From Streptomyces sp. SCL15-4 (GTDB lineage Bacteria > Actinomycetota > Actinomycetes > Streptomycetales > Streptomycetaceae), in contig NZ_JAOBTQ010000001.1 in the NCBI RefSeq assembly GCF_033366695.1, positions 4,650,001-4,714,000 on the forward strand: a DNA stretch of 64,000 nucleotides, written 5' to 3'. Position 1 is the first letter of the stretch. Each line of letters opens with the position of its first letter. Of this stretch, positions 13,622 through 42,290 are shown piece by piece. Under the pieces are notes generated by a model that did no database searches, had not been told where the DNA came from, and saw nothing but the letters and a program-made list of their open reading frames with translations. The position numbers and the translations under genes are program-made.

Positions 13622-13826
13622 GGTGAAGGGCCCCCTTCTACCGGCAGGAACGTGCCGGACGATCCGTTGTAGGAAGGTGGTTGGCGTAGTCCACCGAGGT
13701 GAACTGGACCGAGACGCTACCTGGCGATCACCTGCCTGTCAGTACTTCGGCCCCGGTGAACTTCGCGGAAATTTTCGACAGGCCGCCCCCCGGACCTGGG
13801 TACACTGCACGAGCACCCCGGTGCGC

Positions 13827-13900
13827 GCCTCCTTAGCTCAGCTGGTCAGAGCGCCGCTCTTGTAAAGCGAAGGTCGTCGGTTCGAATCCGACAGGGGGCT
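13827..13900 (+). tRNA. tRNA-Thr (anticodon TGT)
   Basis: A 74-base cloverleaf. Acceptor GCCTCCT pairs with AGGGGGC (one T-G pair), the D arm has AGCTCAGCTGGTCAGAGC, and the anticodon loop CTTGTAA carries TGT at positions 34-36. The T arm is GTCGGTTCGAATCCGAC and the discriminator is T. CCA is not encoded. It lies between the divergent msiK promoter region and the convergent antibiotic-kinase-like gene and has its own terminator. Confidence 0.95.
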
Positions 13901-34516: not shown

Positions 34517-34569
34517 CCTCCTGCTCCGGCCGAGGCGTGAGCCCGGCCCGCGCCGGATACTGTCCCGGT

Positions 34570-35403
34570 ATGGACCCTCTGCCCCTTCCGCAGACCCGGA
34601 CCGGCCGTGACGGACTCGCCGCGCTGCTCGCGCGGCCGCGCACCGCGCTGATCGGCCTGGACTTCGACGGCACCCTGGCCCCCATCGTCGCCGACCCCGA
34701 GCAGGCCCGCGCCCACCCCGACGCCGTGCCCGCGCTGGCCGCCCTCGCGCCCGGGATCGCCTCCGTGGCCGTGATCACCGGCCGGCCGCCCGAGGTCGCC
34801 GTCCGCTACGGCGGCTTCGCCGGCGTCCCCGGCCTGGAACACCTCACCGTCCTCGGCCACTACGGCGCCGAACGCTGGGACGCGGCCACCGGCACCGTCA
34901 CCGCGCCGCCGCCGCATCCCGGCGTGGCCGCCGCCCGCGCCGAACTGCCCGGCCTGCTGGAGCGGGCCGGCGCCGGCGACGGCGTCCGGATCGAGGAGAA
35001 GGGCCGGGCGCTCGCGGTGCACACCCGCCGCGCCGCCGACCCGCAGGCCGCCTTCGACTCCCTGCGCGCCCCTCTCGCCGACCTCGCCGGCCGCCACGGA
35101 CTGATCGTCGAACCCGGCCGCATGGTGCTGGAGCTGCGCCCGCCCGGCATGGACAAGGGCGTGGCCCTCCTGGACCACGCCCGTGCCGTCGGCGCCGGCT
35201 GCGTCGTCTACGCCGGCGACGACCTCGGCGACCTGCCCGCCTTCACCGCGGTCGACAAGCTCCGCGCCGACGGCGTCCCCGGCCTGCTGATCTGCAGCGG
35301 CAGCACGGAGGTCACCGAACTGGCGGAACGCGCCGACCTGGTCGTGGACGGCCCCGAAGGAGTCGTCGCACTGCTGCGGAGCCTCGCCGCTCAGCTCGGC
35401 TGA
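34570..35403 (+). CDS. otsB: trehalose-6-phosphate phosphatase
   Basis: A 277-residue HAD phosphatase releasing trehalose from trehalose-6-phosphate. Catalytic nucleophile D31 and acid D33 lie in GLDFDGTLAPIV; motif II is AVITGRP, the lysine is in GMDKGVAL, and the metal Asp pair is in YAGDDLGDLPAF. The cap domain (about 95-195) is of the T6PP type. The ATG at 34570 was chosen because it directly precedes the conserved start. The last 13 bases overlap the convergent otsA end, so the trehalose pair is arranged tail to tail. Confidence 0.92.
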   Translation: MDPLPLPQTRTGRDGLAALLARPRTALIGLDFDGTLAPIVADPEQARAHPDAVPALAALAPGIASVAVITGRPPEVAVRYGGFAGVPGLEHLTVLGHYGAERWDAATGTVTAPPPHPGVAAARAELPGLLERAGAGDGVRIEEKGRALAVHTRRAADPQAAFDSLRAPLADLAGRHGLIVEPGRMVLELRPPGMDKGVALLDHARAVGAGCVVYAGDDLGDLPAFTAVDKLRADGVPGLLICSGSTEVTELAERADLVVDGPEGVVALLRSLAAQLG

Positions 35404-36827
35404 GCGGTCAGGGCCTGAAGCTGGTCCAGGAACCAGCGGGCGGGCGGCAGCGCGGTCGCGGCGGCGGACAGCCGCTTGGACCGGGCCGCCCGCTCCTCCG
35501 CCGGCAGGGACAGCGCCTCGTGCAGCGCCCGCGCCGTGCCCGTGATGTCGTACGGGTTCACCGTGAACGCGTCCTCGCCCAGCTCCTCGTGCGCCCCGGC
35601 CTCCCGGGACAGCACCAGCGCGCAGCCCTCGTCCGAGACGACCGGGACCTCCTTGGCGACCAGGTTCATGCCGTCCCGGATGGGATTCACCAGCGCCACG
35701 TCGGCCATCCGGTAGGCGGCCAGGGAGCGCGCGAAGTCGTCCTTCACGTGCAGCACCACCGGCGTCCAGCCCGCCGTGCCGTACCGCTCGTTGATCCGGT
35801 CCGCCACCCGCCGCACCTCGGCGGTGTAGTCGCGGTACACGGCGAGGTCCTGGCGGGAGGGGTAGGCGAACGCCACGTGGACGACCTTCTCCCGCCACTC
35901 CGGGTGATCGGTCAGCAGTTCCTCGTACGCCAGCAGCCCGCGCACGATGTTCTTGGACAGCTCGGTGCGGTCCACCCGGACGATCGTCCTGCGGCCCGGG
36001 CCGACCTCCTCGCGCAGCGCCGCCATCCGTTCGGCCACGTCCTCACGGTGCGCCCGCTCACGCAGGAAGTCCGCGTCCGCGCCCAGCCCGTGCACCCCGA
36101 TCAGCGTGCCGGAGGGGATGCCGGGCCCCAGCACCTGACGGCAGCAGGCCGTGAAGGCGTCCGCCCAGCGCCGGGTCAGGAACCCGGCCCGGTCCGCGCC
36201 CAGGATGCCGCCGAGCAGCTCGGCCGCGATGTCGTCGGGCAGCAGCCGGAAGTAGTCCGGCGGGGCCCACGGGGTGTGCGAGAAGTGGCCGATGCGCAGG
36301 TCGGGCCGGAGCCGGCGGAGCATCCGGGGGGCCAGCGCCAGGTGGTAGTCCTGGATCAGCACCGCCGCGCCCTCGGCCGCCTCCTCGGCCAGCGCCTCGG
36401 CGAACGCCCGGTTGTACGCCTGGTACGACGCCCACTGCCGGCGGAACTCCGCGTCGAACACCGGCTCCAGCGGGGTCTGGTACAGCAGGTGGTGGACGAA
36501 CCAGAGGACCGAGTTGGCGATGCCGTTGTACGCCTCGGCGTGCACGGACGCGTCGATGTCGAGCATCCGGACCCGCTGACCGCCGGTGTCCGCGGCCGGC
36601 AGCAGCCCGCCGTCCGCGCGCCGCACGGCCGCCCGGTCGCCGTCGCCCAGCGCGGCGCACACCCACACCGAGCCCGCGTCCGAGCCGATGGCGGACAGCC
36701 CCGAGACCAGCCCGCCGCCGCCCCGCCGGGCGTCGAGCGAGCCGTCCTCGCGGAGCTGATAGGAGACCGGGCCGCGGTTCGAGGCGACCAGTACCCGAGC
36801 TTGTTCGGCAGTGCGCGTGGAAGCCAT
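35391..36827 (-). CDS. otsA: alpha,alpha-trehalose-phosphate synthase (GT20)
   Basis: A 478-residue GT-B glycosyltransferase making trehalose-6-phosphate from an NDP-glucose and glucose-6-phosphate. Visible are VLVASNRGPVSYQL with the Arg/Asn/Gly loop, VLIQDYHLALAPRML, IGHFSHTPWAPPDYFRLLP, FLTRRWADAF, RVDRTELSKNIVRGLLAYE and the C-terminal donor site NPIRDGMNLVAKE. The start ATG at 36827 follows TTGAGGCG; an upstream TTG is unlikely. It lies 74 bases from gpgS on the same strand. Confidence 0.93.
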   Translation of the reverse strand: MASTRTAEQARVLVASNRGPVSYQLREDGSLDARRGGGGLVSGLSAIGSDAGSVWVCAALGDGDRAAVRRADGGLLPAADTGGQRVRMLDIDASVHAEAYNGIANSVLWFVHHLLYQTPLEPVFDAEFRRQWASYQAYNRAFAEALAEEAAEGAAVLIQDYHLALAPRMLRRLRPDLRIGHFSHTPWAPPDYFRLLPDDIAAELLGGILGADRAGFLTRRWADAFTACCRQVLGPGIPSGTLIGVHGLGADADFLRERAHREDVAERMAALREEVGPGRRTIVRVDRTELSKNIVRGLLAYEELLTDHPEWREKVVHVAFAYPSRQDLAVYRDYTAEVRRVADRINERYGTAGWTPVVLHVKDDFARSLAAYRMADVALVNPIRDGMNLVAKEVPVVSDEGCALVLSREAGAHEELGEDAFTVNPYDITGTARALHEALSLPAEERAARSKRLSAAATALPPARWFLDQLQALTAQPS

Positions 36828-36901
36828 ACGCCTCAACCTAGCCCGGCCCGTAAACCCTCAAACGTGCGATCCACCTGCGAAGTCGGTCGTATACGGACCG
36901 T

Positions 36902-37846
36902 TCACGCCACCTTCCGGTCGGCGTACTCCGCGATCTCCACCATGGGCGGGCGCTCCTCGGTGTCCACCGAGTAGGTCCGCGGCTCGAAGCCGTCCTCGCC
37001 CCGCTCGAACTGGGTCAGCGCGGGCCGCACCAGATGGCCCCGGGCCAGCCGGAGCTGGGCCGTGCGGTAGATCGCGGCGGCCATCCGGCCGAGGGCCTGG
37101 CCGTCCTGGTGGCGGTGCTTGCGCACGCCGACGTCGACCTGGGCCAGCGCGTCCAGGCCGGCCAGGTGCAGCGCGTCCACCAGCATGCCCAGCTCCACGC
37201 CGTAACCCACCGGGAACGGCAGCTGCTCCAGCAGCGAGCGGCGGGCCGCGTACTCGCCGCCGAGCGGCTGCACGAAACCGGCCAGCTGCGGCCAGTGCAT
37301 GTTCAACAGCGGCCGGGCCATCAGCTCGGTGACCCGGCCGCCCTGACCGGCCGACCCGGCGAGCGGCCGGTCGTACATCGCCTTGACCAGGTCCACCTCC
37401 GGGTCGGTGAGCAGCGGCCCGACGATCCCGAGGACGAAGTCGGAGGAGAACTCCTTGAGGTCGGCGTCGACGAAGCAGACGATGTCCCCGCCGGTCACCA
37501 GCAGCGAGCGCCACAGCACCTCGCCCTTGCCGGGGACGGCCGGGAGCCGGGGCAGGATCTCGTCACGGTGCACGACCCGGGCGCCGGCCCGCGCGGCGAC
37601 CTCGGAGGTGCGGTCGGTGGAGCCGGAGTCGACGACCACGATCTCGTCGACGAGCGGAATCTGCTCCACGAGGTCGTGGCGGATGACGGCGACGATGTCG
37701 CCGACCGTCTCCTCCTCGTTGAGGGCGGGCAGCACGACGCTGATCGTCTGGCCCGTGCGCTGCTTGGCGGCCAGCACCCGGTGCGGCGGGCGGTCGGCCA
37801 CGGACCAGGAGCGGCGGCTCAGCCAGCGCTCGACTTCTTCCAGCAC
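36902..37846 (-). CDS. gpgS: glucosyl-3-phosphoglycerate synthase-like GT81 glycosyltransferase
   Basis: About 314 residues of a GT-A retaining transferase: ISVVLPALNEEETVGDIVAV, EIVVVDSGSTDRT, IVCFVDADLKEF with the metal-binding DAD, and the acceptor region QPLGGEYAARRSLLEQLPFPVGYGVE, HRHQDGQALGRMAAAIYRTA. These match GpgS, which glucosylates 3-phosphoglycerate, the first step of glucosylglycerate (an osmolyte and methylglucose lipopolysaccharide primer). The GTG at 37846 has GAGGAG upstream; an ATG at 37894 is an alternative. Its placement after otsAB suggests a compatible-solute block. The phosphatase partner is not here. Confidence 0.85.
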   Translation of the reverse strand: MLEEVERWLSRRSWSVADRPPHRVLAAKQRTGQTISVVLPALNEEETVGDIVAVIRHDLVEQIPLVDEIVVVDSGSTDRTSEVAARAGARVVHRDEILPRLPAVPGKGEVLWRSLLVTGGDIVCFVDADLKEFSSDFVLGIVGPLLTDPEVDLVKAMYDRPLAGSAGQGGRVTELMARPLLNMHWPQLAGFVQPLGGEYAARRSLLEQLPFPVGYGVELGMLVDALHLAGLDALAQVDVGVRKHRHQDGQALGRMAAAIYRTAQLRLARGHLVRPALTQFERGEDGFEPRTYSVDTEERPPMVEIAEYADRKVA

Positions 37847-38005
37847 GGTCGGCGGCTCCTCACTGTCACGACCACACGTCACCGTGTGATGCATCTCGCG
37901 GTTCGGACGACTATCTCAACTGTCCTGGCCTTCGGTTACAGTCTTGAACAACGCCGATGACCATCGCATGTCGGGGGGTCAAGCGGCGTTGACAACCACA
38001 TACAG

Positions 38006-38147
38006 CTCATCCAGAGGGGCAGAGGGACACGGCCCGATGAAGCCCCGGCAACCCTCCAGCCGATTCTCGTCTTCTTCCGAGCGAGGCTCCCGGCTAGGGA
38101 AGGTGCCAAATCCGTCTCACGGCGAGATGCGTCGTGAGGAAGATGAG
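38006..38147 (+). promoter_or_regulatory. SAM-I (S-box) riboswitch
   Basis: The P1 stem pairs CTCATC (38006-38011) with GATGAG (38142-38147). Between them are the conserved S-box blocks: AGAGGGGCAGAGGGAC, GGCCCGATGAAGCCCCGGCAACC and GGGAAGGTGCCAAATCC. This is the SAM-binding core. Downstream, GTGAGG (38134-38139) can pair with CCTCAC (38162-38167) directly before the start codon, so control may be translational. Confidence 0.92.
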
Positions 38148-38167
38148 GAGAAAGGGCCTCGCCTCAC

Positions 38168-39451
38168 ATGGCTGTGCAGACAGTTGCCACCCCCAGCGAC
38201 TCCACCGTGGACCTCGGTCCCGCCTCGGCCCTCAGCTGTCGCGAGTGCGGCCACCGGGTGCCGCTCGGACCGGTCTTCGCCTGCGAGGAGTGCTTCGGCC
38301 CGCTGGAGATCGCTTACGACTTCTCCGCCTACGACACCGAGGAACTGCGCCGGCGCATCGAGGCCGGCCCCGCCAGCATCTGGCGCTACGCCCCGCTCCT
38401 GCCGGTCCCGGCCGACGTCGCGGAGAAGCCCAATCTCAACCCCGGCTGGACCAAGCTGGTCAAGGCCGACAACCTCGCCGGCGAACTGGGCGTGACCGGC
38501 GGCCTGTACGTCAAGGACGACTCCGGCAACCCGACCCACTCCTTCAAGGACCGGGTCGTCGCCCAGGCCCTGGAGGCCGCCCGCGCCTTCGGCTTCACCA
38601 CGCTGTCCTGCTCCTCCACCGGCAACCTCGCCGGCGCCGTCGGCGCCGCCGCCGCCCGGGCCGGCCTGCGCTCCTGCGTGTTCATCCCGCACGACCTGGA
38701 ACAGGGCAAGATCGTCATGGCCGCGGTCTACGGCGGCGAACTCGTCGGCATCGAGGGCAACTACGACGACGTGAACCGCTTCTGCTCCGAGCTGATCGGC
38801 GACTCGGCCGGCGAGGGCTGGGGCTTCGTCAACGTCAACCTGCGGCCGTACTACGCCGAGGGCTCCAAGACCCTGGCGTACGAGATCTGCGAGCAGCTCG
38901 GCTGGCGGCTGCCCGACCAGATCGTCGTCCCGATCGCCTCCGGCTCCCAGCTCACGAAGATCGACAAGGGACTCCAGGAGCTGATCAGGCTGGGTCTGGT
39001 CGAGGACCGGCCGTACAAGATCTTCGGTGCCCAGGCCGAGGGCTGCTCCCCGGTCTCCACCGCCTTCAAGGCCGGCCACGACGTCGTCCGGCCGCAGAAG
39101 CCGGACACCATCGCCAAGTCCCTGGCGATCGGCAACCCGGCCGACGGCCCGTACGTGCTGGACGTGGCCCGCCGCACCGGCGGTGCCGTGGAGGACGTCA
39201 CGGACGAGGAGATCGTCGACGCCATCCGGCTGCTGGCCCGCACCGAGGGCATCTTCGCGGAGACGGCGGGCGGGGTGACCGTCGGCGTGACCCGCAAGCT
39301 GCTCGAGGCGGGGCTGCTGGACCCGGCGAAGACCACGGTCGTCCTCAACACCGGTGACGGCCTGAAGACCCTGGACGCGGTGGCCGGGACCGGCCTGACC
39401 GCCACCATCCGCCCGACCCTGGACTCCTTCCGAGAGGCTGGCCTCGCATGA
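38168..39451 (+). CDS. thrC: threonine synthase family PLP enzyme, probably an O-phosphohomoserine-dependent homocysteine synthase
   Basis: A 427-residue fold-type II PLP enzyme. An N-terminal zinc ribbon carries C24, C27, C39 and C42 (LSCRECGHRV, ACEECFG). The PLP lysine is K127 in THSFKDRVV, the phosphate loop is SSTGNLAGAVGAAAARAG, and VPIASGSQLTKIDKG lies further on. By homology it accepts O-phosphohomoserine. Three context points argue against plain threonine synthesis. A SAM riboswitch precedes it, a ThiS/MoaD sulfur carrier overlaps its stop (ATGA), and model Streptomyces carry the housekeeping thrC elsewhere beside hom and thrB. I infer it may place sulfur from the carrier onto the four-carbon skeleton to give homocysteine. 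Confidence 0.85.
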   Translation: MAVQTVATPSDSTVDLGPASALSCRECGHRVPLGPVFACEECFGPLEIAYDFSAYDTEELRRRIEAGPASIWRYAPLLPVPADVAEKPNLNPGWTKLVKADNLAGELGVTGGLYVKDDSGNPTHSFKDRVVAQALEAARAFGFTTLSCSSTGNLAGAVGAAAARAGLRSCVFIPHDLEQGKIVMAAVYGGELVGIEGNYDDVNRFCSELIGDSAGEGWGFVNVNLRPYYAEGSKTLAYEICEQLGWRLPDQIVVPIASGSQLTKIDKGLQELIRLGLVEDRPYKIFGAQAEGCSPVSTAFKAGHDVVRPQKPDTIAKSLAIGNPADGPYVLDVARRTGGAVEDVTDEEIVDAIRLLARTEGIFAETAGGVTVGVTRKLLEAGLLDPAKTTVVLNTGDGLKTLDAVAGTGLTATIRPTLDSFREAGLA

Positions 39452-39723
39452 GCGTGACCGTTCGCATCCCCACCATCCTGCGCACCTACACCGGCGGCCG
39501 GGCCGAGGTCCCGGCCGAGGGCGCCACGCTCGGCGAGGTCATCGCGGACCTGGAGAAGAACCACACCGGGATCGCCGCCCGCGTCCTGGACGACCAGGGC
39601 AAGCTGCGCCGGTTCGTCAACGTGTACGTCAACGACGACGACGTGCGCTTCGAGCAGGGCCTGGAGACGGCGACCCCCGATGGCGCCGGCGTGTCGATCA
39701 TTCCCGCGGTCGCCGGCGGCTGA
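39448..39723 (+). CDS. ThiS/MoaD-family sulfur carrier protein
   Basis: A 91-residue ubiquitin-fold protein (TVRIPTILRTYTGGRAEVPAEG, LGEVIADLEKNH, VNVYVNDDDVRF) ending in the di-glycine AVAGG, the C-terminal tail that is adenylated and turned into a thiocarboxylate. Similar carriers feed sulfur to CysM-like and thiamine or molybdopterin enzymes. No thi, moa, cysM or mec gene is adjacent; the coupled partner is the threonine-synthase-like gene (ATGA overlap), so that enzyme is the likely recipient. The activating ThiF/MoeB-type enzyme must be elsewhere. Confidence 0.9.
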   Translation: MSVTVRIPTILRTYTGGRAEVPAEGATLGEVIADLEKNHTGIAARVLDDQGKLRRFVNVYVNDDDVRFEQGLETATPDGAGVSIIPAVAGG

Positions 39724-39763
39724 TCCTTTCCGACGGCGCGGCCGGTCACCGACCGTCCACTCG

Positions 39764-39798
39764 ATTGCCCCCTCCGTAAGAGAAACGGAGGGGGCAAT
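39764..39798 (+). terminator. terminator closing the riboswitch-thrC-carrier unit
   Basis: ATTGCCCCCTCCGT (39764-39777) pairs exactly with ACGGAGGGGGCAAT (39785-39798) around a seven-base loop, followed by TTC. It lies 40 bases after the carrier stop codon. Confidence 0.9.
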
Positions 39799-40154
39799 TC
39801 TGCGTGATTGAACGCGGTAGAGTTGGGGAACACGGTCGCGGCCCGATGGTCGCGAGCCCTGGATTCATGCCGCGCGCCCGATAAGAAGTAGCCAAGTTGT
39901 GCGGGTTCTGCGCGGCTTTTGTGGCTTTTATGGGGCCCGACTTGCCCTGGAGTCGGGTGAATTCTCGCCATATTCCGGACCCCGCACGTCCAGAATTCTC
40001 GTCCGATTGACCTGTTGCAGACGGCAGTTGGACAGATACATTCAGCCGCGGTCGACGCGTTCCGGCGCACGCCCCCGACCAGTTGGGGGGTGAGGTCTGA
40101 CCCGGGTCCGCGAAGTGTGGATCTGTGCAAGGGCCAGTAATAGGGGAGTTAGGC
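39799..40154 (+). other. 356-base low-GC leader region upstream of the cold-shock gene
   Basis: No credible coding frame. The stretch is clearly poorer in GC than its surroundings, especially 39890-40040. TTGACC near 40009 with GACAGAT about 18 bases later is a possible promoter, which would leave a leader of about 110 bases before the cold-shock gene. Long structured leaders are common in cold-shock mRNAs; I could not identify a named RNA element. Confidence 0.55.
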
Positions 40155-40358
40155 ATGGCTCAGGGCACCGTCAAGTGGTTCAACGCGGAGAAGGGGTACG
40201 GCTTCATCGCGGTCGACGGTGGTGCGGACGTCTTCGTCCACTACAGCGCGATTCAGATGGACGGCTACCGCACCCTGGAAGAGGGCCAGCGGGTCGAGTT
40301 CGAGATCTCGCAGGGCCAGAAGGGTCCGCAGGCCGACATGGTTCGCGTCACCGCCTGA
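40155..40358 (+). CDS. cold-shock domain protein (CspA family)
   Basis: A 67-residue single cold-shock domain protein ([50 protein letters not shown]). RNP1 (KGYGFI) and RNP2 (VFVHY) are intact, so it binds single-stranded RNA or DNA and likely prevents mRNA secondary structure. The ATG at 40155 has GGGGAGTTAGG upstream. A 14-bp terminator follows immediately. Confidence 0.95.
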
Positions 40359-40370
40359 ATGTTTTCGCGT

Positions 40371-40406
40371 GAAGGGCCCGCACCTCACAGAGGGTGCGGG
40401 CCCTTC
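40371..40406 (+). terminator. terminator after the cold-shock gene
   Basis: GAAGGGCCCGCACC (40371-40384) pairs with GGTGCGGGCCCTTC (40393-40406), 14 bp with an eight-base loop. Confidence 0.9.
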
Positions 40407-40478
40407 GCCGTGCCCCCGGCCGCGCCCCGGTTCCGGTGTTCGCGGGCGGCTGACGGGCGCCGTCCACCCGGCCGGGCG

Positions 40479-40505
40479 CTTGCACTCGACCATGCCGAGT
40501 GCTAA
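40479..40505. promoter_or_regulatory. CIRCE element 1 (HrcA operator)
   Basis: CTTGCACTC-N9-GAGTGCTAA matches the CIRCE consensus TTAGCACTC-N9-GAGTGCTAA at 7 of 9 and 9 of 9 positions with the exact nine-base spacer. It lies about 165 bases upstream of groEL2. Confidence 0.88.
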
Positions 40506-40513
40506 TCATTGCG

Positions 40514-40540
40514 TTAGCACTCTGAAGGTGAGAGTGACAG
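40514..40540. promoter_or_regulatory. CIRCE-like element 2
   Basis: TTAGCACTC-N9-GAGTGACAG matches CIRCE at 9 of 9 and 6 of 9 positions with the exact spacer. The perfect half of this element and the perfect half of element 1 also form a 9-bp inverted repeat with an eight-base spacer. Confidence 0.7.
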
Positions 40541-40559
40541 CGAAGGACCGGGTCGGTGA

Positions 40560-42290
<1,731 letters not shown>

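Follow-up and report, generated by a model that had tools for sequence, protein, structure and literature searches.

A metM-metO unit under a SAM-I riboswitch in Streptomyces sp. SCL15-4, with a predicted role in homocysteine synthesis

The 64,000-nucleotide stretch of Streptomyces sp. SCL15-4 DNA that was analysed (the window; source genome size 8.4 Mb) contains a SAM-I riboswitch, a gene encoding a PLP enzyme of the threonine synthase family and a gene encoding a sulfur carrier. Together they are very probably a metM-metO unit, in which MetO-fed synthesis of homocysteine from O-phosphohomoserine would be governed by the riboswitch. Because its anatomy agrees with MetM/MetO as far as that system is described in print, the locus is filed as MetM/MetO, a system that is already known and was published in 2024. 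The earlier note on this DNA had proposed a protein-thiocarboxylate route to homocysteine, and in doing so re-derived the published system from sequence alone; a second thrC, a MoeZ protein and S. albulus MetM, as described in PMC12172450, all argue for the proposed route. MetM/MetO would explain methionine synthesis in many Streptomyces, which would draw on a diverted threonine intermediate and on protein-bound sulfur.

The riboswitch, the enzyme and the carrier

The features located in the window are collected in Table 1. The SAM-I riboswitch, the threonine-synthase-family PLP enzyme and the Gly-Gly sulfur carrier coupled by ATGA, all of which the earlier note had read from the letters, were each recovered by family models.

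Table 1. Coordinates of features in the window
Feature	Position	Strand	Evidence
msiK leader RNA	13626-13685	-	RF01747, 60.4 bits
tRNA gene	13827-13900	+	
SAM-I riboswitch aptamer	38004-38149	+	Rfam RF00162, 78.3 bits, full model 1-108
metM, PLP-dependent homocysteine synthase (predicted) of the threonine-synthase family	38168-39451	+	PF00291, TIGR00260
metO, ThiS/MoaD-type sulfur carrier ending ...IIPAVAGG	39448-39723	+	PF02597, 5.6e-17
Strong hairpin after metO	39763-39799	+	15-bp stem, -29.1 kcal/mol

The RF00162 score compares with a gathering score of 44.4 (E 1e-16, whole window), and this aptamer is the sole SAM riboswitch match in its own genome. Simple folding of the leader RNA failed to give the aptamer structure, and the fold was hardly more stable than those of shuffled sequences (z -1.16, 25 of 200 shuffles equally stable), so the riboswitch assignment rests on Rfam. 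The 3' end of the aptamer overlaps an SD-like AGGAGAAAGG at 38146-38155, which is followed by 12 bases and then the ATG of metM, and this overlap makes riboswitch control at the level of translation plausible. A sigma-70 promoter scan found no match.

The metM frame encodes a protein of 427 aa with a PALP domain (PF00291, 4.7e-69). MetM passes the thrC model TIGR00260 (276.2 bits, cut-off 167.1), and the curated models searched still name it a threonine synthase; the ThrC encoded elsewhere in the genome passes the same model (324.9 bits), so the model cannot separate the two. The best families of MetM are threonine synthases and not the CysK/CysM group. metM is not a thrC encoded with hom and thrB outside SAM control, and neither hom nor thrB was found among the metM neighbours examined (34537-42290).

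MetM shares the PALP family with threonine synthase ThrC (PDB 2zsj, 6cgq, 1uim and 2d1f) but differs from it in an extra N-terminal CxxC pair and in altered loop residues. Its identity to the ThrC of the same genome is 36%; the N-terminal CxxC...CxxC motif is absent from that ThrC, whereas the SFKDR motif is common to MetM, 2zsj, 6cgq and the genome's ThrC. Among 35 MetO-linked enzymes, 40 positions are at least 97% conserved and different in the genome's ThrC. These MetM-type positions include the STGNT of ThrC, which reads STGNL in the window's MetM, and three positions within the five-residue GNAGN loop of ThrC, which reads ASGSQ in the window's MetM. The STGNT and GNAGN loops presumably bind the phosphate groups of PLP and of the substrate.

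The metO gene follows metM so closely that its ATG overlaps the metM TGA, and its product of 91 aa has the C-terminus AVAGG, that is, it ends at Gly-Gly. MetO is 58% identical to CysO of the same genome. The terminator that the earlier note had placed at the end of the unit was borne out in part: a strong hairpin is present after metO (z = -5.19; none of 200 shuffles as stable), but it has no T-run, which leaves it a likely terminator only. A pattern scan for terminators of the T-run type found nothing after metO, having missed the hairpin because of this lack, and the hairpin is probably an intrinsic terminator without a U-tract.

Just upstream of the unit, the stretch 34537-37894 encodes a trehalose-phosphatase, a glycosyltransferase of family 20 (trehalose-phosphate synthase type) and a glucosyl-3-phosphoglycerate synthase. 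Downstream are a frame for a small cold-shock-like protein (40125-40358, by sequence only) and groEL (40668-42290).

Host genome, proposed route and known systems

The earlier note had expected a separate hom-thrC-thrB cluster and would have given up its reading if metM were the only thrC. The second thrC was found away from metM, as the middle gene of a hom-thrC-thrB cluster (C1:2.957-2.961 Mb). The ThiF/MoeB-type activator that the note had suggested looking for is also encoded elsewhere in the genome, as a MoeZ with a ThiF domain and a rhodanese domain (NF005902, 753 bits, cut-off 647).

Four carriers of the ThiS family are encoded in the genome: MetO, CysO, one that precedes a ThiG-like frame (judged from the sequence of that frame, not by family search) and one more. 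The genome also has metX and metY adjacent to each other, and it encodes PF01053 members with the NCBIfam names cystathionine gamma-synthase and gamma-lyase. Since metX-metY is present, this species probably has at least one more route to homocysteine besides MetM/MetO, and an essential role of MetM/MetO is not implied.

In the proposed route, Hom and ThrB would make O-phosphohomoserine, and MoeZ, which we infer to be the activator of MetO here, would adenylate and thiocarboxylate the Gly-Gly end of the carrier. MetM would bind O-phosphohomoserine on its PLP, eliminate the phosphate and add the sulfur of the MetO thiocarboxylate at the gamma position to give homocysteine, these details of the catalytic step being likewise what we infer. 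Homocysteine would then be methylated to methionine, and SAM, with which the branch ends, would bind the leader RNA and turn metM-metO off.

Several of these elements have been described before. In the 2024 report, metO is said to lie directly downstream of metM in S. albulus as the defining pair, thiocarboxylated MetO reportedly acts as the sulfur donor in vitro, and the system is said to be widely conserved in Streptomyces. S. albulus MetM, described as a novel homocysteine synthase, makes homocysteine from O-phosphohomoserine (Hasebe et al. 2024, Appl Environ Microbiol 90:e01247-24, as described in PMC12172450). According to the same description, a SAM riboswitch lies upstream of S. albulus metM, a metO carrier gene is present, and MetM averts methionine auxotrophy in that species (PMC12172450). 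Compared by description, the S. albulus system has the same ThrC-like enzyme, upstream SAM riboswitch and metO gene as the window, and no difference was found as judged from the published description alone. A relative in M. aeruginosa, 51.6% identical to S. albulus MetM, is described as making threonine and also deaminating it and as not fully MetM-functional in cells, and a carrier gene similar to S. albulus metO adjoins the M. aeruginosa thrC (PMC12172450).

In the literature collection searched, no report dated up to 2023 was found that links a SAM riboswitch with Streptomyces, methionine and threonine synthase. SCO4293 is presumably the S. coelicolor counterpart of metM. This gene, which encodes a putative threonine synthase, is listed among the genes with an ArgR-bound upstream region (PMC3293853).

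The CysO/CysM/Mec system, encoded in this genome at C1:5.2616-5.2636 Mb and thus separate from metM-metO, likewise consists of a PALP-family PLP enzyme beside a ThiS-like carrier. Unlike MetM, CysM is a member of the cysteine synthase family; a JAMM protease gene lies alongside, and CysO ends in GGMR whereas the window's MetO ends in GG. A further relative is the methionine route of Wolinella succinogenes, which reportedly has the components HcyS, HcyD and HcyF and is said to use O-acetylhomoserine and an enzyme of the MetY family, in place of O-phosphohomoserine and an enzyme of the ThrC family. The Wolinella carrier is reportedly synthesised with a C-terminal Ala that is removed by HcyD. This earlier path to methionine runs via a protein thiocarboxylate (Krishnamoorthy and Begley 2011, cited in PMC5764234), as is proposed for MetM/MetO.

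Distribution in Streptomyces and the wider phylum

Conservation within the genus was assessed in 61 drawn Streptomyces genomes (the genus draw), the window's own included. MetM was found in all 61 (in one case as a fragment at a contig end), with identities of 82-96%. The SAM riboswitch was found in 60 of the 61, one per genome; the genome without it is 79% complete, and the first base of a contig already belongs to its MetM, which places the leader outside that contig. The riboswitch precedes the MetM match by 15-106 nt in 60/60 and by 15-19 nt in 42; some MetM matches start slightly inside the protein. MetO is downstream of MetM in 59 of the 60 loci of the other Streptomyces genomes, the neighbourhood being measured from the profile match, and at the single locus without MetO just 76 bases of contig remain. 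Among the best 80 of 569 relatives, the nearest named ones are Streptomyces, with enzyme identity up to 96%, and MetO is downstream in 80/80 of these named loci, which are the closest relatives only and, being partly the same as the genus draw, not independent of it. That riboswitch, MetM and MetO are kept together across the genus draw argues that the arrangement is not due to chance.

The acylation enzymes are distributed differently. With the MetX of the window's genome as query (E <= 1e-60), a search by which a distant MetX could be missed, MetX was found in 17/61 Streptomyces genomes, and 15 of the 17 matches have at least 72% identity, the own genome included. MetA was found in one of the 61. 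Neither MetX at this threshold nor MetA was found in 43 of the 61 genomes, all of which have MetM, so MetM/MetO would explain the methionine supply of those 43. The counts for MetM versus MetX and MetA are as expected if MetM/MetO is general and acylation occasional.

A second draw of 119 genomes covered the wider phylum, where a MetM-like protein (E <= 1e-60) was found in 47, 44 of them outside Streptomyces. With linkage defined as MetO within 500 bp of MetM and a riboswitch within about 270 bp upstream, 17 of these 44 have both MetO and riboswitch, 12 MetO only, four the riboswitch only and 11 neither; MetO is thus near MetM in 29/44 and the riboswitch upstream in 21/44. The 15 without a neighbouring MetO include two with less than 500 bp of contig downstream. 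Both belong to the four riboswitch-only loci (L242-L245, no MetO within 500 bp): the contigs of L243 and L245 end within this distance, with 88 bp left in G087 and 470 bp in G073. The SAM riboswitch itself occurs in 57 of these 119 phylum genomes and just upstream of MetM in 24 of those 57; being widespread beyond MetM loci, it is not specific to MetM.

Nine of the 11 loci with neither MetO nor riboswitch belong to one actinobacterial family, f12 (L122, L124, L126, L129, L131, L135, L138, L231 and L232). The f12 enzymes retain 37 of the 40 MetM-type residues without a linked carrier. At L126, the next upstream frame resembles dihydroxy-acid dehydratase as judged by sequence. In the tree, the MetM-like proteins, with the exception of the G093 protein, were grouped apart from the genome's ThrC (support 97/92), where ThrC and CysM form long branches whose placement is unsure. 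The G093 match (35% identity) falls beside ThrC in the tree and probably does not represent a MetM; the count of 44 includes it.

These distributions bear on two other readings of the locus. It is very improbable that MetM uses O-acetylhomoserine/free sulfide in vivo and that MetO serves another thiolation (tRNA, Moco or thiosugar): such a reading could draw on the MetX and the four ThiS-family carriers of this genome and on the four of 44 phylum relatives with a riboswitch and no adjacent MetO (G087 and G073 among them, near a contig end), but MetX occurs in just 17/61 Streptomyces against 61/61 for MetM, and MetO is adjacent in 59/60. We give just as little credence to an ordinary second threonine synthase that a SAM riboswitch precedes by chance and whose downstream carrier is unrelated to it. 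MetM does pass TIGR00260 (276 vs 167 bits), and threonine synthase activity is described for the cyanobacterial relative (PMC12172450); however, hom-thrC-thrB is present elsewhere in the genome and riboswitch, metM and metO follow one another in this order throughout the genus draw, and on these two grounds a second ordinary threonine synthase was rejected. The 40 MetO-linked conserved positions that differ from the genome's ThrC and the MetM activity described for S. albulus (PMC12172450) likewise speak for a MetO-fed homocysteine synthase. A misidentified CysM/CysO was rejected because CysM/CysO is a separate locus.

The C-terminal end of MetO

Not every MetO ends as the window's does. At 60 Streptomyces loci (L171-L230), the MetO ends are Gly-Gly in 36/59, Gly-Gly-Cys in 22/59 and Gly-Gly-Ala in 1/59. 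The codons are GGC TGC TGA in 20 of the 22 Cys forms and GGC TGA in 35 of the 36 Gly-Gly forms, so that the two forms mostly differ by a single CTG unit next to the stop, present in the Cys form and absent from the Gly-Gly form. The Cys tail is scattered on the MetM tree, which requires 16 changes where shuffled tails require 18.2 on average (79 of 500 shuffles needed no more than 16), and at least five tail changes are forced by well-supported branches of this quick tree.

In HcyS-Ala and QbsE, the residue past the glycine end is trimmed before adenylation. With a residue after Gly-Gly, adenylation of the glycine should await such trimming, and by this analogy a tailed MetO should need proteolysis. 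Perhaps a resident JAMM protease trims MetO, as for CysO, in which case the tail would be nearly neutral. A Prok-JAB (Mec-type) protein was found in 60 of the 61 Streptomyces genomes, the sole genome without one (G050) being a GGC genome that is 82% complete; the position of the Prok-JAB gene beside CysO was observed in the window's genome. We tentatively suggest, as an idea about which we have more doubt than confidence, that MetO with one extra residue, as in 23 of the 59 and thus over a third of Streptomyces, is a pro-carrier that a protease, most likely the Mec-type JAMM enzyme, trims before thiocarboxylation, gating the cysteine and methionine carriers together. Gaining or losing one CTG unit would in most cases turn this pro-carrier form on or off. 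If this were true, one protease would link the cysteine and methionine pathways.

Among the literature matches listed (titles and abstract starts), no report of a C-terminal tail on MetO was found, which is weak evidence of absence. A single-codon MetO tail in other species is a small extra to a published system and of modest interest. Outside Streptomyces, the MetO relatives at L117, L130, L137, L239, L240 and L241 have 2-14 residues after Gly-Gly, and these longer tails likewise point to proteolytic trimming.
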